Made by a program: the position numbers and the translations under genes
In this document: piece by piece, positions 1-48,304 of the stretch
Numbering within the stretch: position 1 is the first letter of the stretch
Layout: each line of letters opens with the position of its first letter
The notes under the pieces: generated by a model
Told to the model about the DNA's origin: nothing
The model's database searches: none
What the model saw: only the letters and a program-made list of their open reading frames with translations
From: a virus
Length of the DNA: 48,304 nt
Direction: 5' to 3' (one strand)
Virus record (IMG/VR): IMGVR_UViG_3300033145_000758
Coordinates: 1 to 48,304 of that record

Positions 1-114
1 TGAAAGGAAGCAGGTCACTCTAAATGTCAGGTTCAATAATGTCCCATTGAGGGACGTTATCACTAAGGCATTGTCATCGGTTCGTATTAGTTGGCAAAAC
101 GGACCTGGTAGGAA
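1..114. repeat. Direct repeat of the window end (circular contig overlap)
   Basis: Bases 1-114 are identical to 48191-48304, with an open reading frame running through the join. This is the signature of an assembled circular or circularly permuted genome rather than a biological long terminal repeat. The unit length is 48,190 bp. Confidence 0.9.
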
Positions 115-10186: not shown

Positions 10187-10606
10187 ATGGCTTTAACTGA
10201 CTATAGTGATTTAGAAAGAGAAATTGCCGACGCTCCTGAGCCCAAAACCTTGCCACGAGGTAGTGAAGTAAAAGCTCGTATTATCAGTGTAAGAGAAGGT
10301 GTCAGTGATAAGAACGGTGCTCAGTGGTATCAGCCTATCTTCGATGTGCCTTCTGACCCTTTGGTCATAGAGTTCAATGACTTCTTCTGGGACTTAGCAG
10401 ATCGAGACAAGCTTGAACCAAAGGCGGCAGTTCGAGCTATGAACAAGTTCAAGAACTTTGCTGCTGCTTTCGATCTTGACTACTCAAGGCCCTTCAGTTG
10501 GACTGATGACTTAGTCGGCCTTGAGGGTTGGGTAATTCTTGGAGTTCGCAAATCTGATGAGTATGGAGACCAGAATACTGTAAGTAAATATATAGCTGGT
10601 AGATAA
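10187..10606 (+). CDS. DUF669-like single-stranded DNA-binding protein
   Basis: 139 residues, AGGAGG upstream. The start (DYSDLEREIADAPEPKTLPRGSEVKARIISV) and the GWVILGVRKSDEYGDQNTVSKYI ending fit the DUF669 / Sak4-partner OB-fold proteins found beside phage annealing ATPases. It would coat ssDNA during replication and recombination. It is directly followed by the structured non-coding segment at 10607-10807. Confidence 0.75.
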   Translation: MALTDYSDLEREIADAPEPKTLPRGSEVKARIISVREGVSDKNGAQWYQPIFDVPSDPLVIEFNDFFWDLADRDKLEPKAAVRAMNKFKNFAAAFDLDYSRPFSWTDDLVGLEGWVILGVRKSDEYGDQNTVSKYIAGR

Positions 10607-10807: not shown

Positions 10808-11119
10808 ATGACTAACCAAGAATTTATGATTGAAGTAGAAAACTCTCATAATCGTTCAAAGAGAGTTCTCCTTAAAAAGGAGAAAGAATATTCAGATGGC
10901 TTGGACAGACTTGGTCAATTTTATAGAGCTTCTGAGATGAACCAAGAGTCAGCAACCGAGGCTCTCTGGGGAATGGCTACTAAGCACATAATCTCGATTG
11001 CAGATATGGTTAGAGAACCTAATATGTACTCTCTTAAAGTCTGGAACGAGAAAGTGATTGACTTACGTAACTATACTTATTTACTAGATGCTTTAGTCCG
11101 TGATATAGGAGTAGAGTAA
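10808..11119 (+). CDS. DUF1599 / nucleotide modification-associated protein
   Basis: 103 residues. The pattern KEKEYSDGLDRLGQFYRA, then ALWGMATKHIISI, then WNEKVIDLRNYTYLLDALV is that of the DUF1599 family, linked in the literature to nucleotide-modification gene sets and related in general shape to all-helical MazG-like proteins. It overlaps the dCMP deaminase start by one base, consistent with a shared role in nucleotide pools. The 5' leader is unusual (structured RNA, palindrome, UNCG hairpin). Confidence 0.75.
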   Translation: MTNQEFMIEVENSHNRSKRVLLKKEKEYSDGLDRLGQFYRASEMNQESATEALWGMATKHIISIADMVREPNMYSLKVWNEKVIDLRNYTYLLDALVRDIGVE

Positions 11120-11643
11120 TGTCAGACTGGGATAAATACTTTCGATCAATCTGCGAAACCGTCGCCAGTAAATCTCCCTGCTTGTCCCGCAAGATAGGAT
11201 CTATTCTAGTCCGAGAGCACTCAATAGTCTCCACAGGCTACAATGGGCCTCCTAGAGGTATTCCTCATTGCGGGCACGGGAGATTTACAAAGGATGACGA
11301 GTTACTCAATGCAGCTATACAATATAACAGAGGTATTGAGGCAGACAGATTTAAAACAGAGTGCCCTCGTAAAGTCTTAGGATTTCCTTCAGGTACTCAC
11401 ATGGAACTCTGCCCTGCTCAACACGCAGAAGAAAATGCAGTAAGTAATGCGGCTAGAATAGGAGCTTCCACAGTTGGAACTACCTTATACATAAACTCTG
11501 TAATACCGTGTCAGAAGTGCTTTGGAACACTGATAAATGCAGGTATTAGTGAAATAGTTGTTGACAAAGCAGCTGTATATGACAAGTATACAAAGTTTCT
11601 TATTAATAATTCTAATATAAAAATTAGGGAGTTTAAGAAGTGA
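11119..11643 (+). CDS. Deoxycytidylate (dCMP) deaminase
   Basis: 174 residues. Zinc ligands and the catalytic glutamate are in CPAQHAEENAV (H102, E104) and IPCQKC (C131, C134). The N-terminal RKIGSILVREHSIVSTGYNGPPRG is the usual deaminase strand pair. It converts dCMP to dUMP to supply thymidylate synthesis; no thymidylate synthase is seen, so the host enzyme would follow. Start and stop both overlap neighbours (10808 and 11640 genes), so it is tightly coupled in the operon. Confidence 0.93.
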   Translation: MSDWDKYFRSICETVASKSPCLSRKIGSILVREHSIVSTGYNGPPRGIPHCGHGRFTKDDELLNAAIQYNRGIEADRFKTECPRKVLGFPSGTHMELCPAQHAEENAVSNAARIGASTVGTTLYINSVIPCQKCFGTLINAGISEIVVDKAAVYDKYTKFLINNSNIKIREFKK

Positions 11644-12869
11644 AGATACTGATATTAGGAAGCGATGGCTATATAGGCTATCCATTGACTATTCACCTTC
11701 TCAAAGAAGGTTATGAGGTGCTTGGAGTAGATGACTTATCACGTAGGGAGAGAGTCTATAATATAAACAGTGACTCTCTGACTCCTATTCTTTCTCCTAC
11801 AGAAAGAAAACAATACTTGAGATATACATACAAGAACTTTGTTGACCAAATATGTATCACCCTTGGAGTTGACGTCTCCGGACTTATCAAGGGTAGCCTT
11901 AGAGAGTTTAAGCCTAATGCAATAATTCACCTTGCAGAGATGCCTTCTGCTCCTTGGTCAATGAGATCTGCAAGTCATGCTGGAATTACTCAGTATGAAA
12001 ATGTAGTAGGTACTTTGCATTTACTCTGGGCAATGAAAGAGGTTTGTCCTGAAGCACACTTAGTTAAATTAGGCACTATGGGAGAGTATGGAACGCCTAA
12101 TTGTGATATTCCTGAGGGAAGAATTCCAAAAGATTGCATAGGCAACTACAGATATCAGTATGTAAAAGATAAGTCTAAGTGGCCACCGGACAAATTTGAT
12201 GAAGCATTCTATGAATGCCCTATGAAAGGACTTCTCTTCCCCCGGACTGCAGGATCTTTTTATCACCTTTCAAAGGTTCACGACACTCACAACATTGAAT
12301 TTGCCTGTCGTAACTGGGGACTACGCTCTACAGACATTATGCAAGGAGTAGTATATGGCCTACCTTACAAATTCACTAATTATGGAATAGAGGAATTAAC
12401 TCGCTTCGACTACGATGAATACTTCGGCACAGCCATTAATCGTTTCTGTGCCCAGGCTATCTCCAATCATCACATAACTGTCTATGGAGAGGGAGAGCAA
12501 ACAAGAGGTTTTCTAACTCTGAACGACTCCATTTCCTGTCTGACTCTGGCTATCAAAAACCCTCCAGAAGAGGGTGAGTACCGAACTTTTAATCAGTTTG
12601 AAGATAAATACTCAATCAATGATCTAGCTCGAATAGTACAGAGAGAAGCTGGGCTCATCGGATTTAATGTATCTATTGTCCACATCGCTAATCCTCGTAA
12701 GGAGCTTGAAGATCATTACTACAACCCTACTCACCAAAAGCTGTTTGACCTTGGATATGTTCCAAGTACTAACATTCAAAATGAGGTAGCACTGTTACTT
12801 CGTAAGCTGTCTCCCTATAAAGACAGAGTCAGAAAAGAAGTAATTATGCCTAAGACTTCTTGGCGATAA
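11640..12869 (+). CDS. sqd1-like: UDP-sulfoquinovose synthase homologue (SQD1-like)
   Basis: 409 residues from a GTG start that overlaps the dCMP deaminase stop (GTGA). It has a Rossmann GxxGxxG (7-13). The long body follows SQD1/SqdB closely: HLVKLGTMGEYGTPN (T146), SFYHLSKVHDTHNIEF (Y208, K212), NRFCAQAI, TVYGEGEQTRGF, FNQFEDKYSINDLA, HYYNPTHQKL and the C-terminal DRV....IMP..SW. SQD1 makes UDP-sulfoquinovose from UDP-glucose and sulfite, the donor for sulfolipid and other sulfosugars. In a phage it could feed the virion sugar cassette at 41-46 kb or modify DNA or envelope. Function is inferred from family. Confidence 0.88.
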   Translation: MKILILGSDGYIGYPLTIHLLKEGYEVLGVDDLSRRERVYNINSDSLTPILSPTERKQYLRYTYKNFVDQICITLGVDVSGLIKGSLREFKPNAIIHLAEMPSAPWSMRSASHAGITQYENVVGTLHLLWAMKEVCPEAHLVKLGTMGEYGTPNCDIPEGRIPKDCIGNYRYQYVKDKSKWPPDKFDEAFYECPMKGLLFPRTAGSFYHLSKVHDTHNIEFACRNWGLRSTDIMQGVVYGLPYKFTNYGIEELTRFDYDEYFGTAINRFCAQAISNHHITVYGEGEQTRGFLTLNDSISCLTLAIKNPPEEGEYRTFNQFEDKYSINDLARIVQREAGLIGFNVSIVHIANPRKELEDHYYNPTHQKLFDLGYVPSTNIQNEVALLLRKLSPYKDRVRKEVIMPKTSWR

Positions 12870-12912: not shown

Positions 12913-13161
12913 ATGACATTTGATGATAGTGATTATAAACCTAGATTTAGCTTTGAGATTACAGAAGATCAAAAGTTCCGTGCTGATAATCTCTTATCCG
13001 TCTACGGTCTGCGTAAGGCTATTTTCGGTCAAATCCTAGACGATGTTCTTGACCTCATTGAAGAATATGGAGGTGTAGCTATAGGAGTAATAATGAGCGG
13101 AAAGATTAAGCCTCGTGATATAATTCCTTCAATGAAAAAAGTAGAGGAGAATAAAAAATGA
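12913..13161 (+). CDS. Small conserved phage hypothetical protein
   Basis: 82 residues, AAAGGAGGT upstream. The middle (QKFRADNLLSVYGLRKAIFGQILDDVLDLIEEYG) is a conserved-looking helical core, with an IKPRDIIPS tail. Similar proteins often precede ParB-methyltransferase genes in phages, as here. It may be a small DNA-binding helper. Its stop overlaps the next start (ATGA). Confidence 0.65.
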   Translation: MTFDDSDYKPRFSFEITEDQKFRADNLLSVYGLRKAIFGQILDDVLDLIEEYGGVAIGVIMSGKIKPRDIIPSMKKVEENKK

Positions 13162-13373: not shown

Positions 13374-14699
13374 ATGATTGAAGTTGGAAAGGTAGGAATG
13401 GTTCCTTTGGAATCTATAATCATCAACGAGCGTGCTCGCCAGGAAATGGGCGACCTGAATGGCCTTGAAGCTAACATAAAAGAGGCTGGATTAATCTCGC
13501 CTCTTGCAGTCAAGGATAACAAAGACAAAACCTACACACTTCTTGCAGGTGAACGAAGGTTTAGCGTCTTGAAGAAAAACAAAGTCAAAGAAATCCCTGT
13601 CCGAATTTACGAGAAAGATATCTCAGATCTCGAGATGAAGATCATTGAGAAATCTGAGAACTTCTTTCGCAAGGACATGGAGTTCTGGGAATTAGATAAA
13701 CTAACTCTTGAGATTCATCAGATGCAACAGGCCCTTCACGGAGTCAAAGCTCCAGGACCTAATCAAGAAGGATGGTCTGTTCAAGACACTGGAGAGTTAA
13801 TAGGAGGGCTATCCAAGGCATCTGTATCTCAATCTATCCGTCGGGCTGAGGCTCGTGAAGCTTTTCCTGAACTATTTAAGAGCTGCAAAACTGCCTTTGA
13901 TGCATCTAAGGTGCTGAAGAAAGTTGATGAAGCACTTATTAAGCAGACTATCGCACAGAAACTCGAATCTCAAAAGTCCAGCAGTGTCCTTACTCAACTG
14001 TCAAAGTGCTTCATTCTCAAGGATTTCTTTGAAGGCGTGAAGGAAATCCCTGACAGAGTAATGCACTTAGTTGAAATAGACCCTCCCTATGCCATTGACC
14101 TAGTGAAACAAAAAAAGAAGGATGGAGAGTCTCAATATCAGCTTGATGATTACAATGAGATAGACAAAGATATCTACCCAGACTTTCTCTTAAGATTATT
14201 CCAAGAATGTTATCGCACTATGACTGACCACTCATGGCTCATATGCTGGTTTGCTCCTGAGCCTTGGTTTGAAACTGTCTACAATCTAATATTCAAAGCA
14301 GGCTTCTCAACGACTCGAATGTGTGGAATATGGACAAAAGGCTCACCAGGCCAGAACATGAATCCTTCAATTAGGCTAGCTAACTCCTACGAGATGTTTT
14401 TCTATGCATGGAAGGGGCGTCCAGCACTTAATAAAGCTGGAAGAGGAAATGAGTTTAGATTCTCACCTGTCCCTGCAAATCAGAAGACTCATCCAACTGA
14501 GCGTCCCGTTGAGCTGATGAAAGAGATATATGACACCTTTGCTTTCCCAGGTTCTCGTGTTCTTATTCCTTTCCTTGGTTCAGGCAACGGTCTCATTGCT
14601 GCTCATGAACTTGGAATGAGTGCTGTTGGGTTTGAGTTAGGTAAATCTCATAAGGATAGTTTTTTAGTGAAGATATATAATGAAGAGAAAAACAGATAA
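13374..14699 (+). CDS. ParB-like nuclease domain fused to DNA methyltransferase
   Basis: 441 residues. Residues 8-110 are a ParB/sulfiredoxin-type domain (LAGERRFSVLK at 57-67), followed by a helix-turn-helix-like middle (VQDTGELIGGLSKASVSQSIRRAE). The C-terminal half is an N4/N6 amino-methyltransferase with DPPY (236-239) and the SAM-binding FLGSGNG near residue 400. ParB-type phage enzymes combine sequence-specific DNA binding, CTP or nuclease chemistry and methylation. It is a candidate for recognising the 25-bp palindromes, though this is speculation from co-occurrence only. Confidence 0.85.
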   Translation: MIEVGKVGMVPLESIIINERARQEMGDLNGLEANIKEAGLISPLAVKDNKDKTYTLLAGERRFSVLKKNKVKEIPVRIYEKDISDLEMKIIEKSENFFRKDMEFWELDKLTLEIHQMQQALHGVKAPGPNQEGWSVQDTGELIGGLSKASVSQSIRRAEAREAFPELFKSCKTAFDASKVLKKVDEALIKQTIAQKLESQKSSSVLTQLSKCFILKDFFEGVKEIPDRVMHLVEIDPPYAIDLVKQKKKDGESQYQLDDYNEIDKDIYPDFLLRLFQECYRTMTDHSWLICWFAPEPWFETVYNLIFKAGFSTTRMCGIWTKGSPGQNMNPSIRLANSYEMFFYAWKGRPALNKAGRGNEFRFSPVPANQKTHPTERPVELMKEIYDTFAFPGSRVLIPFLGSGNGLIAAHELGMSAVGFELGKSHKDSFLVKIYNEEKNR

Positions 14700-14758: not shown

Positions 14759-17272
14759 ATGCGTAGGATGTACGTTCCTCCGTCCGGAAATCTCAGTGCT
14801 AAACTTGCAGGCTGTGGCGAGCAACCTGGATTTCAAGAAGTCCACGCCCGCCCTCCTAGACCTTTCGTAGGGCCTGCTGGTCAAGGGCTTGATGAATGTC
14901 TTCTAATGACAAAGATCTTACGTCGTGATCTTTACCTAACGAATGTTATTAAAGATCTCGACAGGCCTCTGAAACATTATATAAATTTAGGTAATCGAGG
15001 CAAACCTACTATCAGTCCAGAAGGCCACCAATATATTCAAGAACTTGCAGATGAACTTAAGCAACTCAACCTAAATGCAATTATAGCCTTTGGCAACATT
15101 GCTTTATTGGCGCTAACCAACAGAGTAGGAATTACAAAGTGGAGAGGCAGTGTCATTGAGTCTACAATCGTTCCTGAGCTTAAAGTAATTCCCACCTTTC
15201 ACCCTGCCACATTCATTCCTCCTAAGTTCAATTTCCTTAACAAACCTCTTATCTGTGAGGACTTACTTAGAGCTAAATATGAGAGTGAGTTCCCAGAAAT
15301 TAGACGTAAGGAGCGAAATATCACTATCAAACCAACGTTTGCTCACACCATAGATCTCCTCAACTACTGCTATGAAGTAGGTATGCGTGGTCAAACTATC
15401 GGTATTGACATTGAAGTGATAAATGGCGAAGTGGACTGCATATCTCTTGCTTGGTCTGACTATGAGTCAGTCAGTATTCCCTTTCGTGATTACCGAGGCG
15501 ACTACTTCACCGTTGACCAAGAACTCGAGGTCATGCTTCTTATTGCAAAAATAATTCAGGAACCTTCTATCTCAAAGGTTGGGGCCAACTTTATTTTTGA
15601 TATTCAGTTCCTTTTCCACAAATATGGCATTCTCCCTCGTGGGACTCTTCACTGCACACAGATTGCTCAGAAGATTGCTTATCCAGACTTTAAAGCCGGA
15701 CTTGATTTCGTCACTACTATGTACACAGATATCCCTTACTACAAAGAAGACGGTAAACAGTGGATGAAAATGCAGAGCGGTTCTTGGGAGGAGTGGTGGA
15801 ACTATAATGGAATGGATGCTATTGTCCCTGTAGAGTCAATACCTAAACAACTACAAACTCTTGCACACCAGCAAAACGCTGAGACCTACGAGCGTCAACG
15901 TAAGTTGATCAAACCTCTTATTTACATGTCAGAGCGTGGAATTAAAGTTGATGTGCAAGGGATGTTAGACTACAAAGAAAAGCAGCAGGCAGAGCTTGAT
16001 GAACTGGCCGAACAGCTTAATAAAGAAGTAGGCTATGAAATTAACTTCAACTCTCCCAAGCAACTTGCTAAATACTTTTATGAAGAGCTTAACATCAAAC
16101 CTTACAAAAAGCGCAACTCGAGTAGTCAATATGTAATAACTACCGATGTAGATGCTTTAAAGAGGATTGCCAGAAGAGGCTTCAAAGCTGCTCAACTAAT
16201 GCTCGACATTAGATCTCTAAGCAAGCGGATATCAACTTATTTAAATATAGGAAAGGTGGACAAAGATGGAAGATACAGATCAAGTTACAAACCAGTGGGA
16301 GCCGAGACAGGTCGCCTCTCAAGTAGTGAAACTATATTCGGAACTGGAGGAAATCAACAGAATTGGCCGCATGATTTACTTAGATTCTTTTTATTCGACG
16401 AAGGCTATATTGGCTATTCGTTTGATCTATCGCAAATTGAAAACAGAATTGTTGCTTACGTTGGAGGAGTTATACCACAAATCAGAGCATTTGGAAAAGG
16501 AGTAGACCTTCACTGTCTAACTGCCTCAATGATATTTGACAAGCCTTATGATAAAATATCATCTGAAGCTGGCTCTTCATCCCTCGGCGATGGTCGTCAA
16601 AGTGAGCGCTATTGGGGTAAGAAAGGAAACCACGCTATTAACTATGATGTAGGATATAAAAAATTTGCCTTAGTAAACGAAATGCCTGAGAGTGAAGCAA
16701 AGTTTATTTTGGAAAAGGTTCACAAAGGCTACCCACAGATTAGAGGAGGATATCAACTAACCATTCAAAGTATGCTTAAAAAGGATAGAGTTGTTACAAA
16801 CCTTTTTGGCCGCCGAAGATTGTTTCTTGGCCCTATTATTCCTTCCTATCCTAATGTCCCGAAGAGTGCCTGTGAAGCAACTTATCGTGAGGCATATGCT
16901 CATTTTGCTCAAAGTACTTGTGCTGATAAGATTAATGAACAGGGAGTTGAGTATATCTATTATAACCAAGATCTCTTTAGGCCAGTTGAACTCCTTGCCC
17001 AAATTCATGACTCAGTAGTGTTTCAGATCCCTCTATCAGTTCCCTGGGAGGAGCATGCTAAGATACTTCTCCTGATTAAAAAATCTCTGGAAACTCCCCT
17101 TATATGGCACAAGACTGAAATCAATACTCCTTGTGATCTAGCTATCGGTAAGTGTATGTGTAAGGATTTGATGATTGAATTTAAAAGCAAAGATGTTCCA
17201 GACAGTACTGAACGACTTGCTGATGTGCTGAAGAACACTTACAATAAGCTTAACAAAGATAATAAAAACTAA
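14759..17272 (+). CDS. polA: DNA polymerase I (family A) with N-terminal uracil-DNA glycosylase-like domain
   Basis: 837 residues with AAGGAGAT upstream. Residues 1-180 resemble family 4 UDG (GEQPGFQEV, PFVGPAGQGLDE, LTNVIK, FHPAT) but lack most Fe-S cysteines. The 3'-5' exonuclease follows: Exo I IDIEV (D217), Exo II GANFIFDIQ, Exo III YNGMD (D353). The polymerase has motif A DLSQIENR (D556), motif B KKGNHAINYDVGYKKF and motif C IHDSV (D751). This is the replicative polymerase. UDG-polymerase fusions are known from SPO1-type phages. The UDG part may be catalytically altered. Confidence 0.92.
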   Translation: MRRMYVPPSGNLSAKLAGCGEQPGFQEVHARPPRPFVGPAGQGLDECLLMTKILRRDLYLTNVIKDLDRPLKHYINLGNRGKPTISPEGHQYIQELADELKQLNLNAIIAFGNIALLALTNRVGITKWRGSVIESTIVPELKVIPTFHPATFIPPKFNFLNKPLICEDLLRAKYESEFPEIRRKERNITIKPTFAHTIDLLNYCYEVGMRGQTIGIDIEVINGEVDCISLAWSDYESVSIPFRDYRGDYFTVDQELEVMLLIAKIIQEPSISKVGANFIFDIQFLFHKYGILPRGTLHCTQIAQKIAYPDFKAGLDFVTTMYTDIPYYKEDGKQWMKMQSGSWEEWWNYNGMDAIVPVESIPKQLQTLAHQQNAETYERQRKLIKPLIYMSERGIKVDVQGMLDYKEKQQAELDELAEQLNKEVGYEINFNSPKQLAKYFYEELNIKPYKKRNSSSQYVITTDVDALKRIARRGFKAAQLMLDIRSLSKRISTYLNIGKVDKDGRYRSSYKPVGAETGRLSSSETIFGTGGNQQNWPHDLLRFFLFDEGYIGYSFDLSQIENRIVAYVGGVIPQIRAFGKGVDLHCLTASMIFDKPYDKISSEAGSSSLGDGRQSERYWGKKGNHAINYDVGYKKFALVNEMPESEAKFILEKVHKGYPQIRGGYQLTIQSMLKKDRVVTNLFGRRRLFLGPIIPSYPNVPKSACEATYREAYAHFAQSTCADKINEQGVEYIYYNQDLFRPVELLAQIHDSVVFQIPLSVPWEEHAKILLLIKKSLETPLIWHKTEINTPCDLAIGKCMCKDLMIEFKSKDVPDSTERLADVLKNTYNKLNKDNKN

Positions 17273-18540: not shown

Positions 18541-21500
18541 TTAATCCTCAATGAGATTACTAAACTCAGTCATAAATCTTTCAGTAACCAATCCTCCTAT
18601 GCCTTCCATAGCTGACAACCCATCCCAGATTTTCTGCTTTCCCTCTTTGTCAGCCTTGTTGTATCTAAGAGCTAAAATCTTTGCTCTTGCTTCTGGAGGT
18701 TTTTTAGCCAGCTTCAGCCAATCTTTTCTATCAGGTAAGTCAGCGGAATTCTTAATAATCTCTATCTTATCATTAACTCTTTCCCAAGCATGATAGTCTC
18801 TTTCTATAGCCCTTTCTTTTATCTTTTCTAATTCCTCCAAGGCTTCTTTTGAGCCTCTCCAATAAGCAAACTTAGCCCAGGCTTCAGCTGCCCGACCATC
18901 TATCATATTCAATAACTTTTCTTCATTAACAATCTCAAATTCCCTTTCTCTAGTCCTAGCATTAGGAACAGTTACTCCTATCACTCTGCTAATTCTTGGA
19001 ATCTTCGACAATGTAATAAAGAGATTATCCTTCTTCATATCATCAGGAAGGTCACTGAATAACTTCTCATATCCAGTCCCTACAATCCTACCCCAGATAG
19101 AGTCCGTAAATATCTGCTTAAGTGCTGTGCTTATTCTGTCAGGAGACACTCCAGTCCTCTGACCTATATCTTCCCAGATCTTAAATCCTTCACCTGGAGT
19201 AAATTCAGCTTTACTATAAGGCCAGGGCAGCATTTCAGATGTTGCAGGTCTTCCGGTGAACATATCTTTGCCTGTTCTATAAGACTGTATAAAAGCTGCC
19301 AAGGGAGGTAAGTATGTAGGATCTACTGGCATCCCAGCTTTCATAGCCTCAAACACAGCTTCATATTCAGGCTCATGCTTGATGACCCCTGAACTATAAA
19401 GATATTGATCAGTTAATGTTTCAAAGAAGATATTGAACATGGCTATCTCACGAGGCAATGGTATCTTGACAAACAAACCTCTTTCAGCACCATCTAAGTC
19501 TGTAAATCTAAATGAGTCAGGTAGTGCGAAAGTTTTGTTTCTAGCTCTTGCATAAAGAGGAATTTCTGACTGAGTTTCTTTATTAAAAGTCCATCCAAGA
19601 GCAGTTGTTAGAGTAGCTAATGTTCCAACTTGAAACATCCTATAGGCAAACCCAGCTGGGTCATCTTTAGCTTGTCTCCAGAATACTCTACCAGCTTGAA
19701 CACCAGCATTAGTGTAAGGAAGGGCCTGGTCGATAGCTTTAATTAACCAGCCTCCTTGATTGAAGTCTATGTAATCTCTGGCTGCAAAGGCAGCTCTATC
19801 CATTATCTCTTTATCCTTCATGGCCTGCTTACGAGTAATTCCCTTCTCCCTGGCCATTCTTTCAATAACTCTATTAGCTACAGCCTCTCTAGTCCACATC
19901 TCCATATTTTCAGAGTGCCTAGTCCATAGATCACCAAACTTACTTAACTTTGTAGGTACTCTTTCTCCAGGTGCAACTATTCTAGCCTGCTGTGCTAAGA
20001 AACTTAACAACGCTCCATGCTCAGCTAAGGCTTTGTATAGAGGGCCTCTGGTGTGGGCATCCTTTGCAACCTTAACTAAGTCCTTTCCTATTTGCAGTGA
20101 GAATATTGGAAAGTGACTGCTATATAACCTATGCCACTTACCTCCTTCATAATACCTTGCCGAGCCCCAAGCTGTAAGTACATCAATAGGAAAGTTAACA
20201 ATAGTTGACCAAACAGGTGCAGCGCCAGTGGCCATAAATCTTAATACTGGAGTAAGAAGTGCGTAACTAGCAGCTCTGGCAGCCCTATACGTAAGGTCTT
20301 TACTTTTGCCAGTGACCATATCTTTAGCTATTTCAGGATGTAAATATATAGACTTCGTCTTAGCCTTTCCAGTCCCTCCTACCCAAGCACTGAATCTAAC
20401 ATACCCCTTTGGTTTCTTTGGGTAGTCAGTTTCAAGATATCTAACCTTAACTCTCTTACCTCCAAGAGATCTACTAAACTTGACTAACTCAGTATCGGAT
20501 AACTCTTCCAAGGATTGAGCGTCGAACTTTTTTATTAGCCTATTCTTGAAATCTTTCTCAGTAAGCTCTAGTGCCTTCTTCCTACTTTCTATATGCTCCA
20601 GTATTCCACTCCTAATCTCTGGAATAAGCTTTCTTTCAGGCATAGTCCATACAAGTGGATTATCTGGTCTTTCTTCCGCCACTTCCAACCAGGTTCTAAG
20701 GGCGTTGTTGTTCATAATTCTTCCATACATTCTATTAAAGAACTCAAGGGCCAGTAGCTCAGCGTCACCCTCTATTATTCTATCAGCCTCTCCCTCACCT
20801 AATCTCCTAACACCTGACTCCCTGACCTCAAATTTCCTATTACCTATAGTGACTTCCATCTTTGGGTCATACTCTTCCAACTGTCGAATCTTCCTCCAGA
20901 AATGAGACTTTAAGTCAACAGCTTCTCTATCACCAAATAGCCCCGACTCCCTGGCTTTATCAATAACTATCTTAATGTGCTCTCCATAGTTCTTGGCCTT
21001 TCTATTTAGATCAGCTACTTCTTTATCTGTAAGGTTATAGGTTTTCTTAAGAGTCTCAAGGAATTTCACGGCATTGATAGGGTCTCTTCCCTTCGGAAAC
21101 TTATACTGCTTAACAGTCTTGTATCCCCCTATATCCAGCATTCTCTTTGCATCAATAATAGCAAATAGTGTTTTCTTCCTTTCCTTACTAAGCCCAGAAA
21201 ATACTTCTTTCTCTAACTGCGAAAAATGAGTCTTCGATCTGCCAGGAGCCCCAGATGCAAGATACATCTTGTGAACTATTTCAAATCCGTCATCTTTGAG
21301 ATGTTTAAGAACTTCCCTGGAAAGGTTACCCCTCTTCTCAATAATGGCAGATGTAAATTCTTCTCTGATTCTCTTTGGTAAATAAGACCATTTAAAATCC
21401 TTTGCCTTTAAAATTTTTTCAAAAGACTCTTTAAATTCCTTAGCACCCTTTAAGATATCCTTAGCTGCTTTGTCTATAGGGATTCCTGTGTATAATTCCG

Positions 21501-24126
21501 TACCTCCCTCAGGTCCGCCTCCTTTAGGTTTCTTGGTCCTACGTTTGTCCTCGAGACTTTTTTCGGTTGTCTCAACTAATTTTATCCTACCTCTTCTAGT
21601 CTCAGGAGACTCTATAAGCTTCATAGGAATATCAGGCCTAGAAGGATCCCATATAGCTACCATTCCTCCCCTATCAAGAACATCTTGAGGCGATTCTAAA
21701 TTTACGAGTGGATATTTTTCAGCGAACTTTTTAGCTGACATTTCTGATATGTTGACTACTTTTCTTCTTTCTCCTTTAGGCAATAGGTATTCTTCGGGCA
21801 CAGTTCGTTCAATTTTTGAACGATCTCCCAGCTCCTTCACTCTCCCTATACCCAGTCTATATATAGGATCTATCTTCACTATCTCTAATATGTCTGGGTT
21901 AAATATAGTATACGCCTCAGGAGCGTCCTCGAAAGTAGCATCCTCATATTTAATACCATTTATACCTTCGTCTGCAAGCATCTTTCTACTTTGCGCACCA
22001 TACCTATCTCGCATTTTAAGGACCAAGTCACCATAGTTACTAGCATGTATACCAAACTTGTCCAACACTTTACTAGGTACTTTATCATTCCAATCAACTA
22101 TCCCCACGTTTTTTACTCTAATTTTATATAAGAAAGACCCAGGTATTTCTTTAGGATCTTCTAGCAACTTCAACTTGGCTACCAGATCTTTATTAGATTC
22201 CAGAGTACCAAGGATTACTGGAAACACATCCTCACCAACTTGAACTTTCACCAGCCCACCACTAGCGGTCTCTGCATATTCACTAGCACGTTCTTTTGAG
22301 GAAATCAAATTGATTCCTATTCCTGCTTCAGCCCCGCCCTCACCTGTACCTATCCTGTCAATGTCAAAGGTATCAAATTGGCTCTTCGATCCATGGTAGG
22401 CTTCTATATATTCTGTAGGCTGTTCAATTTTTGAACGATCTAAATTCCTAGCCCAGGCAGCTGCCTCACTTACAGTCTCTTTCCATATGTTGTGGTCACT
22501 TCTTGATATAAACTCTCTATCAAATTTATCTGCCTCAGCTGCCAAATTACTCAGTGTATTTCTAGTCTCCGTTATATCAACTGTCTCATCTCCATGATAC
22601 CATCTATTAACATCGTTAATGAGTTTTTGTGTAAGCACTTCGATATTTTCCCTTACTGATAACTCACGCCCTGCAAACATCTTACCGAAAGTCTCAGCTT
22701 TTTCTTTGTCTTGAAAGAAAGGACTTTTCTCATCTTTAAGCCCGGGAACTTCAACTCCTGTCAAGCGGTCGACCTCAGTAACCTGCTCCGGCTTTTCTTC
22801 TCCGAACCAATCTATTTTAGTTTCTTTTTTTTGCTCTATAAAGAAATTCTCTATCTCTTTATCAGATATTTTGTCTATATCTTTTTCATAGCGATTCTCA
22901 AGTTGTTTAATGGTATCTAAGTCCTCAATCACTGCAGGCTCTTCAAATTCCTCCTTAACAATCTTATCCTCTTTCTTAACCTCTTTAGCAGCTGTGATTT
23001 TCTCGCCTTCCTTAACCAGCTTCTGTCTAGCCTTCTCAGCCTTCTTGGCTTCCCTATCAAATGCCCTCTTAGACTTCTCAAACATCTTTTCTCTGGCAAT
23101 TCCCTCAGCTTGGCGTAGTAGTTCTTCCTTAATCAGTTCATCTCCAAGTTTATCAATTTTAGCCTCGGCCTCTTTTCTGGACAGCTCTGCTTGAATACTC
23201 TTAACTTCTTCAACTTTCTCCTGAGCTCTTTCAATTACCTCCTTAGGTATATCAGCCTCCTTAGCTATGTCAGAAGCAGCTTTGTCAGGTGATACTTTTT
23301 CAGCTTTAGCTTTCTTAGCTATTCTGTTGATGATATTTATTTTAGAGTATTTATCTTTAGCTCCCCGCAATAAAGCACCAACAATCCCTCTACCAACCTC
23401 TGTAGTCCCACCTGCAGCTACAGCTTCGACTATGAACTCTAATACATTTATAGCATCTCTGGAAAAACCTTCGGCCTCCAGTAGATCAGAAACTCCTTTC
23501 CCCGCCTGAAACAGATATGGCTCTTTCTTACGCCACGATACAAAAGCATTAATAGCTTCATCAGCTCCCATGAAAGCAGCTACAGCTGTTGCGGTAATGA
23601 CTGGATGAGTTAGCATACCTTTAGCTATAGCCCCAGTCATACCAAGGTGAAGCGCCTTCACAGCCATCTCTTTAGACCCGGGAATCCTAGCTGGAAAAAA
23701 TACACTCGACAATTCATCATAATGTCTAAGGACTTCCATAGGCTGTAAGCCTGTCAGCTCAGACATAGCAACTATATTGGCTGCCCTATCTTTGCCTACA
23801 TCAGGGTCGTGAAACCAACTTCTAAATTTCTCCCATAGAGTTTGGTCAGGGTCTTCTGCATAAATCCCTGGAGGTCTTTTCAGTTGAATATAAGGAGCAA
23901 TATCTGATATATTTCCACCTTTATATACCCCCATAAGAGCCGCTGTCTCAGGTGAAACAAATGGAGCTAACCCAAAAGCAAGATCTGGTCTGGGGCCGGA
24001 TGATGGCTTAACTGTTGGAACTTCAGTTGCAGGCATTGACTCATCAACATCTAAAAATTTCTCAAATGGACTCAGTTCCTTAGTATCTTTAGGTTCTACT
24101 CCTAAAAAGTCTTCAAATATACTCAT
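18541..24126 (-). CDS. Giant polyvalent ejection-type protein with ADP-ribosyltransferase domain
   Basis: 1861 residues, the last gene of the late arm. Residues about 290-460 are highly charged coiled coil. Residues about 575-750 look like an ADP-ribosyltransferase of the polyvalent-protein type (AYHGS, GIGINLISSKERASEYAE, INGIKYED, YTIFNPDILEI). Residues about 1275-1510 resemble an LPD38-type domain (ASYALLTPVLRFMATGAAPVWS, DYIDFNQGGWLIKAIDQALPYTN). Polyvalent proteins are packaged and injected with DNA, so host-targeting ADP-ribosylation on entry is plausible. Two in-frame palindromes bracket the ART domain. The start overlaps the previous stop (ATGA). Confidence 0.85.
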   Translation of the reverse strand: MSIFEDFLGVEPKDTKELSPFEKFLDVDESMPATEVPTVKPSSGPRPDLAFGLAPFVSPETAALMGVYKGGNISDIAPYIQLKRPPGIYAEDPDQTLWEKFRSWFHDPDVGKDRAANIVAMSELTGLQPMEVLRHYDELSSVFFPARIPGSKEMAVKALHLGMTGAIAKGMLTHPVITATAVAAFMGADEAINAFVSWRKKEPYLFQAGKGVSDLLEAEGFSRDAINVLEFIVEAVAAGGTTEVGRGIVGALLRGAKDKYSKINIINRIAKKAKAEKVSPDKAASDIAKEADIPKEVIERAQEKVEEVKSIQAELSRKEAEAKIDKLGDELIKEELLRQAEGIAREKMFEKSKRAFDREAKKAEKARQKLVKEGEKITAAKEVKKEDKIVKEEFEEPAVIEDLDTIKQLENRYEKDIDKISDKEIENFFIEQKKETKIDWFGEEKPEQVTEVDRLTGVEVPGLKDEKSPFFQDKEKAETFGKMFAGRELSVRENIEVLTQKLINDVNRWYHGDETVDITETRNTLSNLAAEADKFDREFISRSDHNIWKETVSEAAAWARNLDRSKIEQPTEYIEAYHGSKSQFDTFDIDRIGTGEGGAEAGIGINLISSKERASEYAETASGGLVKVQVGEDVFPVILGTLESNKDLVAKLKLLEDPKEIPGSFLYKIRVKNVGIVDWNDKVPSKVLDKFGIHASNYGDLVLKMRDRYGAQSRKMLADEGINGIKYEDATFEDAPEAYTIFNPDILEIVKIDPIYRLGIGRVKELGDRSKIERTVPEEYLLPKGERRKVVNISEMSAKKFAEKYPLVNLESPQDVLDRGGMVAIWDPSRPDIPMKLIESPETRRGRIKLVETTEKSLEDKRRTKKPKGGGPEGGTELYTGIPIDKAAKDILKGAKEFKESFEKILKAKDFKWSYLPKRIREEFTSAIIEKRGNLSREVLKHLKDDGFEIVHKMYLASGAPGRSKTHFSQLEKEVFSGLSKERKKTLFAIIDAKRMLDIGGYKTVKQYKFPKGRDPINAVKFLETLKKTYNLTDKEVADLNRKAKNYGEHIKIVIDKARESGLFGDREAVDLKSHFWRKIRQLEEYDPKMEVTIGNRKFEVRESGVRRLGEGEADRIIEGDAELLALEFFNRMYGRIMNNNALRTWLEVAEERPDNPLVWTMPERKLIPEIRSGILEHIESRKKALELTEKDFKNRLIKKFDAQSLEELSDTELVKFSRSLGGKRVKVRYLETDYPKKPKGYVRFSAWVGGTGKAKTKSIYLHPEIAKDMVTGKSKDLTYRAARAASYALLTPVLRFMATGAAPVWSTIVNFPIDVLTAWGSARYYEGGKWHRLYSSHFPIFSLQIGKDLVKVAKDAHTRGPLYKALAEHGALLSFLAQQARIVAPGERVPTKLSKFGDLWTRHSENMEMWTREAVANRVIERMAREKGITRKQAMKDKEIMDRAAFAARDYIDFNQGGWLIKAIDQALPYTNAGVQAGRVFWRQAKDDPAGFAYRMFQVGTLATLTTALGWTFNKETQSEIPLYARARNKTFALPDSFRFTDLDGAERGLFVKIPLPREIAMFNIFFETLTDQYLYSSGVIKHEPEYEAVFEAMKAGMPVDPTYLPPLAAFIQSYRTGKDMFTGRPATSEMLPWPYSKAEFTPGEGFKIWEDIGQRTGVSPDRISTALKQIFTDSIWGRIVGTGYEKLFSDLPDDMKKDNLFITLSKIPRISRVIGVTVPNARTREREFEIVNEEKLLNMIDGRAAEAWAKFAYWRGSKEALEELEKIKERAIERDYHAWERVNDKIEIIKNSADLPDRKDWLKLAKKPPEARAKILALRYNKADKEGKQKIWDGLSAMEGIGGLVTERFMTEFSNLIED
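21802..21826. repeat. 25-bp dispersed palindrome, copy 9 (inside a CDS)
   Basis: In-frame copy encoding DRSKIERT on the minus strand, just C-terminal to the ADP-ribosyltransferase domain. Confidence 0.85.
22417..22441. repeat. 25-bp dispersed palindrome, copy 10 (inside a CDS)
   Basis: In-frame copy encoding DRSKIEQP on the minus strand, just N-terminal to the ADP-ribosyltransferase domain. It has the same reading frame as copy 9, 615 bp away. Confidence 0.85.
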
Positions 24127-41932: not shown

Positions 41933-42860
41933 TAAAGTCTCTACAAAGTTGTTTGAACGCTTTCAGATATCTGTAGAAAATAATGTCTACTCCCCTCAGC
42001 AAGATATCTTTAAACATTCTTCTCACTAAAGGGCCATGAACATCTTCAATCAGTACACCTTTTGGAATATCTATTTCATCCCAAGAAGATGAAGCATAAG
42101 CAAAGTAAGCATCACACATTACGAAGTCGTATTCATTCCAGGAAAATCCGTAGTCAATAGGCCTCAACATTCTCCACTTTGCAATATCTGCATTATTAAC
42201 CTTCCTTACAATAGATGATACACTAGTTAGTTTACTGACCTCTAATCTAAAAGAATCAAAGTGAGTTATAGGCCTGTTTTGTCTATCTATTGTAAGCCAT
42301 AAGATTTTTGGGTCTTTTGAGTATTTAGTTAGATACTCAACGAATTGATTAGCCCTGATATTTACAGAGTGCTTATCACATATTAAAGATCTTCCAGCAG
42401 AAGATATTCTTTTTCTCTCTCCGTCGTTTTTTAGGTAGTATTCTACCTGCTCTATTATATTGTTTTCATCCAAAGATACCATATTTACTTTGTCTTCAAA
42501 ACCTAATAGTCCAAGTTCGCCAATCCAGGGAGCTATCAACAGCGTCTCGCAAGCAGGGATTTCAAAATACTTAGCTACCGGATAATTCACTTCACCTCCA
42601 CAAGTTAAGCATATCTCGGATGAAGATATGAAGTGTGCAAAATCATCTTTGATGGGATAGTTCTCCCAATCCTCGGCGAATTTTCTTGCACATATATAGT
42701 CAAAGTAAGTTTTATTCTTTAAAGTGTTAAGTATATTTTCTCGGACTGGATAGTTTTTACCTACTGTTCCAGCAAGTACTACCTCCCTCACTTTGAGGTC
42801 GCTAGGCTTGAACATATCTACATCAACAGACATTGGAAGCCATATGAATTCTAGGCTCAT
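41847..42860 (-). CDS. Glycosyltransferase (CgeB/GT4-like) with apparently swapped domain order
   Basis: 337 residues. The N-terminal 195 residues look like the C-terminal GT domain of CgeB/DUF3880-type enzymes (FIWLPMSVDVDMFKPSD, VVLAGTVGKNYPVRENIL, LTCGGEVNYPVAKYFEIPACETLL, GRSLICDKHSVNIRANQF). The rest resembles their N-terminal domain (ILWLTIDRQ, FVMCDAYFAYASSSWDEIDIPKGVLIEDVHG, GVDIIFYRYLKAFKQL). The normal order is the reverse, so the gene looks circularly permuted or a remnant of a tandem array. It overlaps both neighbours. Confidence 0.75.
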   Translation of the reverse strand: MSLEFIWLPMSVDVDMFKPSDLKVREVVLAGTVGKNYPVRENILNTLKNKTYFDYICARKFAEDWENYPIKDDFAHFISSSEICLTCGGEVNYPVAKYFEIPACETLLIAPWIGELGLLGFEDKVNMVSLDENNIIEQVEYYLKNDGERKRISSAGRSLICDKHSVNIRANQFVEYLTKYSKDPKILWLTIDRQNRPITHFDSFRLEVSKLTSVSSIVRKVNNADIAKWRMLRPIDYGFSWNEYDFVMCDAYFAYASSSWDEIDIPKGVLIEDVHGPLVRRMFKDILLRGVDIIFYRYLKAFKQLCRDFNVQFKQQIQHRLCKDDRGQNSLASSSYN

Positions 42861-44448
42861 ATTCTTGAATATTCCTTATGTCAAGTTTCCATTTAGATTC
42901 AAATAGCTGATGGCTCTCCTTGATAGTTTTTCTGTTATATCTATCAGCCTTGTATTCAACTGAGCCTCCCCCTAAGTTCCTAATTGACAGATTACCGGAA
43001 GTCAATGTGATAGCTTTCCAACCGCTTCCTTCCATCTGCATGCATAGATCATAGTCCCAAAGTCCGACTTTATAGTTTTTATCTATTTCACAGGTTTTAA
43101 ATACTTCTCTTCTAAACAGTGTACTGGCAGATCCGACGAAAGATGTTTTTACAAACTGTTCAGGAATATTTAGAGGTATTCTCACGACATAATCTTTTCC
43201 TAAAGTCTTCAGATACTTTTGACCCTCGAAGGTAGAGGAGACTGCCCCAAGAGTGTCTACTCCCTCTAAGATATTGACTAAGAAATTTAAACTGCCTGGT
43301 TTAAACAAGACATCGTCATCAGCTAAGAGCATATAAGGAGAATCAAATAACCTTAGAGAACGCTTAACTAGTTCCCTGCGAGGCGCTCCAGTTCCCTGAT
43401 TGTACTTTGTGAAGTATACATTTGATTTATAGAATTTGTTAGACAAGTCAATTATAAGTCTTTTATCCTCTTCGCTAAGGTTTTCAGATCCTTGAACTCG
43501 TAGGCATAGACAGAGAGGGCCACTATAAGCACTCGGGAGATTAAGTAGGGATTCTTTGAGGTAGTTCAATCTAAGCCAAGAGAGCATAGCGATTGAGATT
43601 GGAGGCTTAGATCGGTTGTAAGATATAGCATCACTCGAGCCCCAATTATCTTCCATTTTGTTAAGATACTTAATCCAATTAGATTTAGACCATCTAATCA
43701 TAGATGAAGCCTTGTGCTGAATTAAGCAGTCTCTTACAGTAGTAGGCTTATGCCACAAGTGGTATGCTTTGCTTTTAAGTTTCTTAATTCTGCTTATGTA
43801 ACCGAGGGAACGTAACTTGGATAAAAAAGCATTATCTTCACCTCCCCAAGAACCAGCGAAGTCTTCTGGAATGCCTTTGACAGTGAAGAATAGATGTTTC
43901 GGAATTATAGTTATTCCACCAGCTGCACCGCCGATACTTGGAACTCTTACCCTTTCAGTGCCTTCCTTGTCTATATAACCTGACTCTAGATATTTATCAG
44001 TAGCTTCTTTACTAAGATAATTCATTGAGCTATAACCAGCATATACCTCGTTGCACCGTAAAAGTTCAGAAGCCCAATCTCGGTCAACTATTAAATCACC
44101 GTCCATTAAGACTAACATACTCCCTGAGGCAAGTTTCCTCACACCTCTATTGATTACCCAGGCTCTATGAAATATTCCTAAGAAAGGTGTAAATAGGTAT
44201 TTGTATCTACTCCCTAACCAAAGGCTTCTTTCTTTCCCTGCCTCATGAATGCAGATTTCTACTTTTTCGTCTAAGATAGTATTTAGGTTATCTAAACAGG
44301 CATTGAAGATAGACAGACGTTCTTGAGAGTGTTGATAAGGGATAATTATAGAGTAAGTGCTTGGAGTAGAGATAGGTGTAGATATATCAGATATCTGCCT
44401 CCTTAGTCCAATCCTACTCCTCCAACTAGTTTTTCCAGATAATCTCAT
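42823..44448 (-). CDS. Bifunctional glycosyltransferase with two GT-A domains
   Basis: 541 residues. The first domain (about 30-275) has YSIIIPYQHSQERL, the DxD-type LVLMDGDLIVDR and SWGGEDNAFLSKL, as in galactosyltransferase-C/chondroitin polymerase-like enzymes. The second (about 275-510) has ISIAMLSWLRLNYLKESLLN and MLLADDDVLFKPGS. Each could add a different sugar, building a repeating glycan. Start and stop overlap neighbours (ATGA at 44445). It is part of the sugar cassette that also has an epimerase, two further glycosyltransferases and a methyltransferase. Confidence 0.85.
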   Translation of the reverse strand: MRLSGKTSWRSRIGLRRQISDISTPISTPSTYSIIIPYQHSQERLSIFNACLDNLNTILDEKVEICIHEAGKERSLWLGSRYKYLFTPFLGIFHRAWVINRGVRKLASGSMLVLMDGDLIVDRDWASELLRCNEVYAGYSSMNYLSKEATDKYLESGYIDKEGTERVRVPSIGGAAGGITIIPKHLFFTVKGIPEDFAGSWGGEDNAFLSKLRSLGYISRIKKLKSKAYHLWHKPTTVRDCLIQHKASSMIRWSKSNWIKYLNKMEDNWGSSDAISYNRSKPPISIAMLSWLRLNYLKESLLNLPSAYSGPLCLCLRVQGSENLSEEDKRLIIDLSNKFYKSNVYFTKYNQGTGAPRRELVKRSLRLFDSPYMLLADDDVLFKPGSLNFLVNILEGVDTLGAVSSTFEGQKYLKTLGKDYVVRIPLNIPEQFVKTSFVGSASTLFRREVFKTCEIDKNYKVGLWDYDLCMQMEGSGWKAITLTSGNLSIRNLGGGSVEYKADRYNRKTIKESHQLFESKWKLDIRNIQEYEPRIHMASNVC

Positions 44449-45452
44449 GAATTATTCCAAGGTTGATCTTTGAGCATCTGTTCAAAGGACATTATCTTCC
44501 GATTGTCAAGCCATTGTTTTTCTTCTTGGCCGAGTTCAATAGATTTATCCCACCACTCTTCGACGTTAATGAACTTGCCGAACTTCTTTGTAATCATACC
44601 TTTGTTGCGATGCATCATAGGTTCGCCGCCGAGAACGTAGCAACTAATAAGAAATCCAAGTGCATGAGGGCCAAAGCCTGAGTTAGCCCATAAGCGATAT
44701 TTGTATCCGTCGCCGGAAGATACTTTGACAACATTAGGATTTCCTGTATTATCTATTTTAGGAAAAGGACCTATATGGATACAGGGAGAAGTAGGGACTG
44801 CCCAGTTTTTAAATCCGAGAAGCCAGGGCTTAACACCTATGTGCATATCTCCACCTCCCCAAGAGATACGATGTTTAGAGAGAGCTCCATACCCTCCAAG
44901 GCCACAGTCTTTATCAAGAAACCATTCTCGGCGACAAATCCATGGCATCCCTTTCCAAGTTATAGTTCTTTCATAATTATAAGCAGTGTTCCAATCTCCG
45001 AGTTCGTTGACTGACATATCTCGGCTGTGTTTAGCATTTTGTTCATGCTGGTGAGCCCAAGATATTGGAGCATGAGCAAAGGCAATAGTTGGGTCACTTA
45101 AATGTCTGTCCATGAAGTTTACTAAATCAAGAAGGCAGTTGTGGCCTACTAACATATGAGAGTCGATGCAAAAGATGTATTCCCCTGAGGATTTTTCAAC
45201 TGCTGTTTCCCGGGCTGTGAAGAGACATGGAAAGTCCTGATGGTAAATTCTTAGTGTTTTATCTTTGCAGTATCCGAGGGGAAGGACACTAGCTAATAAT
45301 GTATATATGTTAGGGTCAGAGTTATCTACAATTATTATCTCTCCGTTACCTTTACCAAGAGGGCGGAGTTCCTCGATGCAAGAGCGTACAGTTACAGCAA
45401 GCATTGAGGTGTCATTACGATTAGCAATAACTATTGACAGCTTTTTCTGCAT
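44445..45452 (-). CDS. GT2/GT27-like glycosyltransferase
   Basis: 335 residues. LSIVIANRNDTSMLAVTVRSC and EIIIVDNSD begin a GT-A fold. The metal site is FCIDSHMLVG (D97, H99), and the acceptor-side motif ISWGGGDMHIGVKPWLLGF followed by SPCIHIGPF resembles polypeptide GalNAc transferases (DxH, WGGEN, CSRVGH). This suggests initiation of sugar addition on protein Ser or Thr. It starts within the epimerase gene end (32-bp overlap). Confidence 0.8.
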   Translation of the reverse strand: MQKKLSIVIANRNDTSMLAVTVRSCIEELRPLGKGNGEIIIVDNSDPNIYTLLASVLPLGYCKDKTLRIYHQDFPCLFTARETAVEKSSGEYIFCIDSHMLVGHNCLLDLVNFMDRHLSDPTIAFAHAPISWAHQHEQNAKHSRDMSVNELGDWNTAYNYERTITWKGMPWICRREWFLDKDCGLGGYGALSKHRISWGGGDMHIGVKPWLLGFKNWAVPTSPCIHIGPFPKIDNTGNPNVVKVSSGDGYKYRLWANSGFGPHALGFLISCYVLGGEPMMHRNKGMITKKFGKFINVEEWWDKSIELGQEEKQWLDNRKIMSFEQMLKDQPWNNS

Positions 45453-46200
45453 ACCATTTAAAGGTTTTTTCTAAGCCTTTCTCCAAAGATATAAAAGAGG
45501 TAAAGTCTGAATATGTGTTTACTTTGTGTATCTCTTCAGCAATAGGATCAATGTAGAATATTTTGAGTCTCTTACCAAAATATTTTAGTGCTAGAGGATT
45601 GGCGATTTTTACTAGTTCATTAATGGAGATAGACCTGTTAGATGCCACTGTCTGTAGAGGACACTTGGCGTTTGTGATAGATCTTACTACATCATCTATG
45701 TAGACAAAGTTTCTAGTCTGAGTCCCATCTCCGTAGATATAGAAAGCTTCATTTTTAATTAAAGATTTAATCATGTTAGGAATTACACTGCTTTTATACT
45801 CAGACATAGGGCCGTAGACATTTGAGAATCTGAGAATGCATACTTCCAAATTAGATCTGAAGCATTCACAGAGTGCCTCACATGCTAACTTTGAGGCAAG
45901 ATAAGGAGATCTTGGTTTGTCGGCACTTGCTGAAGATGCAAAGATAAACTTTTTAAACCCGTAATCTCTGGCAAATTCAAGAAGGTTGGCAGTCTGAGTT
46001 ATATTTTTAGATATAGTTAGGGATAGATGCTTTGCTGACATTCTAACATCTGTTAGGGCAGATAGATGGACTAAGACATCAGCATTATGATGAAATAGGT
46101 TATTGATGTCTAGGATTGAATAAGGTAGGCTGAGTGAACTTAGATAACTAGTCAAGTTTCTACCTATGAAACCTTTATATCCAGTAATTAGATACTTCAT
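45421..46200 (-). CDS. NAD-dependent sugar epimerase/dehydratase
   Basis: 259 residues. An SDR-type Rossmann motif TGYKGFIG (G7, G10, G13) and the catalytic SPYLASK (Y and K of YxxxK) are clear, with FSNVYGP and GDGTQTRNFVYIDDVV downstream. Probably converts a nucleotide sugar (UDP-Glc or dTDP-hexose type) for the adjacent glycosyltransferases. The start follows directly on the stop of the gene at 46201. Exact substrate cannot be told. Confidence 0.85.
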   Translation of the reverse strand: MKYLITGYKGFIGRNLTSYLSSLSLPYSILDINNLFHHNADVLVHLSALTDVRMSAKHLSLTISKNITQTANLLEFARDYGFKKFIFASSASADKPRSPYLASKLACEALCECFRSNLEVCILRFSNVYGPMSEYKSSVIPNMIKSLIKNEAFYIYGDGTQTRNFVYIDDVVRSITNAKCPLQTVASNRSISINELVKIANPLALKYFGKRLKIFYIDPIAEEIHKVNTYSDFTSFISLEKGLEKTFKWYAEKAVNSYC

Positions 46201-48128: not shown

Positions 48129-48304
48129 ATGGAAACAGTTAACGGTGTGTATCAGATAGATTGTTCTATCAGGCCCGACGGTGAGTCGGATGAAAGGAAG
48201 CAGGTCACTCTAAATGTCAGGTTCAATAATGTCCCATTGAGGGACGTTATCACTAAGGCATTGTCATCGGTTCGTATTAGTTGGCAAAACGGACCTGGTA
48301 GGAA
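48129..48304 (+). CDS. Hypothetical early phage protein, 5' part (continues at base 1)
   Basis: The open frame begins METVNGVYQIDCSIRPDGES, with TGGAGGT upstream of the ATG, and runs off the window end. On the circular genome it continues to 304, giving 121 residues. See the first feature for the rest. It is the first product of the rightward promoter and is likely made early and strongly; function unknown. Confidence 0.85.
   Translation, partial: METVNGVYQIDCSIRPDGESDERKQVTLNVRFNNVPLRDVITKALSSVRISWQNGPGR
48191..48304. repeat. Direct repeat of the window start (circular contig overlap)
   Basis: Identical to bases 1-114, marking the circular join. Confidence 0.9.

Follow-up and report, generated by a model that had tools for sequence, protein, structure and literature searches.

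The window, by which we mean the whole stretch of 48,304 nucleotides analysed here, is an entire virus record. Its direct terminal repeat of 114 bp (positions 1..114, identical to 48191-48304) suggests a complete phage genome that was assembled as a circle. On its plus strand lies a gene for an SQD1-family nucleotide-sugar enzyme (11640..12869; 409 aa, GTG start), which overlaps the gene for dCMP deaminase (PF00383; 11119..11643, plus strand) by 4 bases. An earlier note on this DNA had described this reading frame of 409 codons and its coupling to dCMP deaminase in an operon, and both descriptions hold: the -4 overlap, with ATG starts, is seen in most related loci retaining both genes. Within the gene, also on the plus strand, are the codons for Pro102 (11943..11945; in EMPSAP, at the place of the essential Arg in EQRSAP of Agl3), for Thr146 of the catalytic triad (12075..12077; inside GTMGEYG) and for Tyr208 to Lys212 (12261..12275; YHLSK). 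A small conserved ORF of 82 aa (12913..13161, plus strand) forms the downstream boundary of what is described below as an optional site. Pfam gave nothing useful for the small neighbour ORFs at 10187, 10808, 12913 and 13158, and our first guess that the ORF at 10808 encodes a nucleotide-modification domain is unsupported.

The encoded protein is an SQD1-like extended SDR, nearer to SQD1 (plant UDP-sulfoquinovose synthase) than to other sugar epimerases or dehydratases. Its top NCBIfam model is NF041015, UDP-sulfoquinovose synthase (E 4e-136, 454 bits; next model 38 bits). Its closest PDB relatives are the SQD1 structures 1qrr and 1i24 (sequence E 2e-102; next PDB family 6e-7), and Foldseek likewise finds SQD1 first (~1e-41 at 41% identity for 1i24; next family 1e-19). 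The equivalog cut-off of NF041015 is 575 bits; the shortfall is not diagnostic, because the cyanobacterial homologue L083 reaches just 486 bits and is likewise below it. Furthermore, two of four tested cellular proteins with Pro at position 102 (Pro-type proteins) exceed the cut-off, which we dropped as a membership criterion because of these inconsistent controls. The AlphaFold model has a mean pLDDT of 77.5 and is poor over residues 147-205, active-site residues included. The catalytic signature of UDP-sulfoquinovose synthases, Thr-Met-Gly-x(n)-Tyr-x3-Lys (PMC8987622), is present as T146 M147 G148 and Y208-K212 and is invariant in a viral alignment of 15 rows, and so are T146, Y208 and K212. 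The protein shares with SQD1 the fold, the catalytic Thr-Tyr-Lys and the motifs GTMGEYGTP and YHLSKVHD; it differs in having Pro for Arg101 and in a longer loop (residues 163-197) with conserved cysteines that replaces the GRTD loop. The SQD1 homology and the triad claimed earlier are thus borne out by HMM, sequence, predicted fold and alignment.

In a phylogenetic tree, 57 viral rows including the window form a separate clade (SH-aLRT 99) apart from all cellular rows. SQD1 groups elsewhere, with cyanobacteria; Agl3 was absent from this tree. As the viral clade is deep and apart from all cellular rows, a recent one-off acquisition from a host was rejected. A search of 50,697 phage records with the protein gave no match. 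The dN/dS of the gene between close pairs is 0.07-0.19, so it is under purifying selection and is kept functional where present.

The mutagenesis data for this family come from Agl3 of Sulfolobus acidocaldarius, an enzyme serving S-layer N-glycans (PMC4388408). In Agl3, His95, Arg101, Met145, Tyr182 and Lys186 are essential, Glu147, Tyr148, Ser180 and Thr185 are important, and the T144A variant has full activity (PMC4388408). The essential Arg101 is the R of EQRSAP, as read from the mutagenic primer; the R101A variant is inactive, and its 5,6-ene reaction is abolished too (PMC4388408). All these residues have a counterpart in the window except the Arg (Thr185 is represented by Ser, as in SQD1), and the segments His, Thr-Met-Gly-Glu-Tyr and Ser-x-Tyr-His-x-x-Lys are kept. 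The window reads HLAEMPSAP, and in the alignment with SQD1 and relatives Pro102 stands at the position of the Arg, a change that the earlier note overlooked.

Pro is found at this position in 81/82 viral relatives and Arg in 1/82 (L162). The 80 nearest cellular loci have Pro in 61, Arg in 17 and Ala in 2 cases, a ratio that is biased, the Pro motif having been part of the search pattern. Arg is kept in SQD1, Agl3, cyanobacteria and Thermoplasmata, and also in proteins from Sinorhizobium meliloti pSymB, a Rhodobacteraceae plasmid and Pseudonocardia. One haloarchaeal homologue carries Pro. Position 102 is the sole column fully split between Arg-type (19/19) and Pro-type (142/142) proteins; these groups are defined by column 102 itself, and the finding is that no other column tracks it. 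In the viral core clade the GRTD loop is replaced by the longer loop with conserved cysteines (C155 in 49/50, C193 in 48/50). The SQD1-like gene of L024 (L024:3406-5601) is split exactly within the GTMGEYG/TP active-site motif by an insert of ~334 aa that resembles an intein and matches LAGLIDADG_3.

Arg-type and Pro-type genes also differ in their surroundings. In several genomes, cellular Arg-type genes have a SqdX-type GT4 nearby (the name SqdX being inferred by position and family), and one adjoins genes for a sulfotransferase and phosphoadenylyl-sulfate reductase. Cellular Pro-type genes have epimerase, NeuB or aminotransferase genes in their vicinity. In Anaerolineae they belong to a conserved block; at L027:6032-11772 and similar loci, its order is prephenate dehydratase, aspartate-semialdehyde dehydrogenase, the Pro-type SQD1 homologue, histidinol dehydrogenase and a phosphotransferase-like gene. 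A viral cassette (L163:1963-8291) encodes UDP-GlcNAc 2-epimerase, 2-hydroxyacid dehydrogenase, cytidylyltransferase, a Pro-type SQD1 homologue and NeuB; behind it lies a ribonucleotide reductase gene.

These data bear on the possibility that the Pro102 subfamily is an offshoot of SQD1 that has lost sulfonation and provides a different UDP-sugar for the same transferase (see below), e.g., UDP-glucose-5,6-ene, a 4-keto-6-deoxy sugar or one that bears another group at C6. The complete split at column 102 alone, the retention of Arg from SQD1 and Agl3 to cyanobacteria, S. meliloti, the Rhodobacteraceae plasmid and Pseudonocardia, the inactivity of Agl3 R101A, and the frequent location of Pro-type genes in NeuB, aminotransferase or epimerase neighbourhoods, with Arg-type genes beside a SqdX-like transferase, all speak for it. 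However, the remaining residues tested in Agl3 are all conserved, and the Arg is not a specific marker for sulfite, because R101A abolished the 5,6-ene reaction as well. Moreover, viral Pro-type genes adjoin the gene for PAPS reductase, a sulfite-producing enzyme, in two lineages (L023 and L151/L153), and in the cellular locus L092 PAPS reductase is encoded 2.3 kb from the Pro-type gene. These neighbours argue that at least some Pro-type enzymes use sulfite; the window itself encodes no PAPS reductase. The earlier note had named the loss of sulfite-binding residues as evidence against sulfonation. The missing Arg of EQRSAP is indeed a real warning in this respect, yet PAPS reductase adjoins Pro-type genes elsewhere, and we regard a loss of sulfonation as less likely than not.

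About 50 contigs share one module with the SQD1-like gene at a constant position. Its order is exonuclease, Sak4-like gene, small ORFs, dCMP deaminase, SQD1-like gene, small ORFs, ParB-methyltransferase, UDG-PolA and primase. Among 51 newly fetched loci that cover this region (found by polymerase search, some being near-duplicates), the gene is present in 24 and absent from 27. At the empty sites, the deaminase gene and the ORF corresponding to that at 12913 are usually adjacent or nearly so, and the replication module is intact. On a polymerase tree of 26 genomes the distribution of the gene needs 8 changes, and 413 of 500 label shuffles were as low; the gene has therefore often been gained and lost. 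This phage lineage carries it as an optional cassette whose site is fixed.

The polymerase gene (14759-17272, plus strand), near the dCMP deaminase module, encodes throughout the lineage an N-terminal uracil-DNA glycosylase-family domain followed by exonuclease and family A polymerase domains. In L005:5855-9289, L006, L203 and L210 this gene is ~300 codons longer than in relatives and its PolA domain is found in two stretches, which suggests an intein. A fusion of an N6/N4 DNA methyltransferase with a ParB-like domain at its N-terminus (13374-14699, plus strand) is conserved lineage-wide. So is an ORF of 1861 aa (18541-24126, minus strand) with a sub-threshold match to ADP-ribosyltransferase (ART-PolyVal).

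The sugar cassette that had been noted at 41-46 kb is real: it holds three ORFs for glycosyltransferases and one for a truncated epimerase, and there is a weak match to a methyltransferase. All four ORFs lie on the minus strand: a glycosyltransferase (PF13524; 41847..42860), a two-domain glycosyltransferase of 541 aa (42823..44448), a GT-A glycosyltransferase of 335 aa (44445..45452) and a truncated NAD-dependent epimerase-like ORF of 259 aa (45421..46200). In a comparison of gene content between genomes that have the SQD1-like gene (12) and genomes that lack it (7), the 335-aa transferase, selected as the best-associated of all families, was most tied to that gene (12/12 versus 1/7). The two-domain transferase (5/12 versus 0/7) and the truncated epimerase (4/12 versus 0/7) gave counts too sparse to use. 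In an extended count of contigs of at least 41 kb (polymerase-selected contigs plus the window), the 335-aa transferase is present in 15/16 contigs with the gene and in 1/9 without it (Fisher p 7e-5); the discovery set is part of this count, which is thus no independent replication. There are counterexamples: G023 has the SQD1-like gene without the transferase, and G007, G050 and G054 have the transferase without the gene; G056 and G057 are further, more distant ones. Independent pairs on well-supported branches are 4 to 0.3 in favour of the association, but too few (p 0.125). A partial Mantel test of the SQD1-like against the transferase families, with polymerase, primase and terminase taken into account, provides weak support (r 0.29, p 0.02). 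In G051, a distant relative with the SQD1-like gene at a different site, the transferase is present too; viruses with the gene outside the window clade are devoid of it.

The transferase is predicted to have a GT27-like fold with a DSH metal motif (mean pLDDT 82.8), D97-S98-H99 being invariant. Its best Foldseek matches are polypeptide GalNAc-transferases (E ~1e-11, TM 0.55-0.67 on the query), followed by TarP. With 15-20% identity, 335 aa and no lectin domain, it differs from GT27 enzymes.

The phage has no close isolate. The closest named phage is Desulfofustis phage LS06-2018-MD01 (OP947158), with 47% identity for the polymerase and 52% for the capsid. It has the same gene order in both the replication and the structural half, but neither the SQD1-like gene nor the transferase. 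Desulfofustis sp. PB-SRB1 is a sulfate reducer. This bacterium was assigned as the host of phage MD01 by CRISPR spacers (PMC10370329). By analogy with phage MD01, at 47-52% identity, the host of the window phage may be a sulfate reducer, and sulfite would hence be on offer.

Taken together, the SQD1-family gene of this phage probably serves phage glycosylation. We propose that an active NAD-dependent enzyme would act on UDP-glucose by way of 4-keto and 5,6-ene intermediates, and that addition of sulfite at C6 would give UDP-sulfoquinovose or a close C6-modified UDP-hexose. The GT-A transferase that the phage itself encodes (44445-45452) would then attach this sugar to the virion or to the host, with a protein or a surface glycan as acceptor and with a possible benefit in, e.g., shielding, receptor masking or adsorption. 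To the reading that UDP-sulfoquinovose or a close C6-modified UDP-hexose is made for the phage's own glycosyltransferase we assign a probability of about 0.5. The best match to SQD1 by HMM, sequence and fold, the retention of the other residues that matter in Agl3, the dN/dS values, the co-occurrence of the transferase (G051 included) and the viral PAPS reductase neighbours count for this role, as does the sulfate-reducer-assigned phage MD01, which has the same architecture without both genes. The replacement of Arg101 by Pro (R101A kills Agl3), the missing GRTD loop, the lack of a PAPS reductase in the window, the mismatches between gene and transferase (G007, G050, G054, G023) and the small number of independent pairs (p 0.125) count against it. 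Sulfoquinovose is the leading candidate for the product; it is unproved, because a residue essential in the characterised enzyme Agl3 is missing. Thus, of the sulfonated sugar donor proposed earlier, the SQD1 family and the triad stand, and the sulfonation is not secured, the Arg of EQRSAP being Pro in the viral clade.

The best-known use of UDP-sulfoquinovose is the synthesis of SQDG, and cellular Arg-type genes adjoin a SqdX-like GT4. The phage could therefore remodel host lipids, for example to spare phosphate, rather than supply its own transferase. However, the window ORFs that we scanned revealed no recognisable SqdX-like GT4, the co-varying transferase has another fold and there is no sign of SQDG synthesis in the host, so we consider lipid remodelling improbable. 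Modification of phage DNA, at which the constant position of the gene between the deaminase and the ParB-methyltransferase/polymerase genes might hint, is very improbable and was rejected as the main role because about half of the lineage has an intact replication module without the gene; furthermore, the co-varying transferase is encoded in the glycosyltransferase cassette, ~30 kb from the SQD1-like gene, in structure it comes closest to glycosyltransferases for protein and teichoic acid rather than to DNA glucosyltransferases, and the ORFs that we scanned showed no recognisable base hydroxymethylase. Of the decoration suggested in the earlier note, the link to glycosylation is thus supported by the co-occurring transferase, and that to DNA has its sole support in the position within the replication module.

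A viral UDP-sulfoquinovose synthase has been reported for a Mu-like virus from the Cariaco Basin (PMC7785012), and SQD1 is among the highly expressed viral genes in estuaries (PMC13288924). These genes share the annotation and the origin from environmental viruses with ours; in the parts of the two reports available to us we found no analysis of active site, gene content or transferase (PMC7785012, PMC13288924). Such annotations are thus already known. The Pro subfamily and the linked transferase are apparently new: we found no description of them in the literature searched, most subscription journals lying outside it. It is conceivable, at somewhat less than even odds, that the Pro102 enzymes form a subfamily of SQD1 that is widespread and so far unrecognised and whose chemistry has changed, i.e., to Arg-independent sulfonation or addition of another C6 group, and that phages use them together with a GalNAc-transferase-like partner for an unusual protein sugar. 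Sulfoquinovose is known from archaeal S-layers and photosynthetic membranes, and to our knowledge from no virion. Should the product be UDP-sulfoquinovose, phages would be equipped for sulfonated glycans with both the synthase of the donor and a candidate transferase. If it differs, many automatic annotations of cellular and viral UDP-sulfoquinovose synthases would be wrong: of the four cellular Pro-type proteins tested, two pass the NCBI cut-off.
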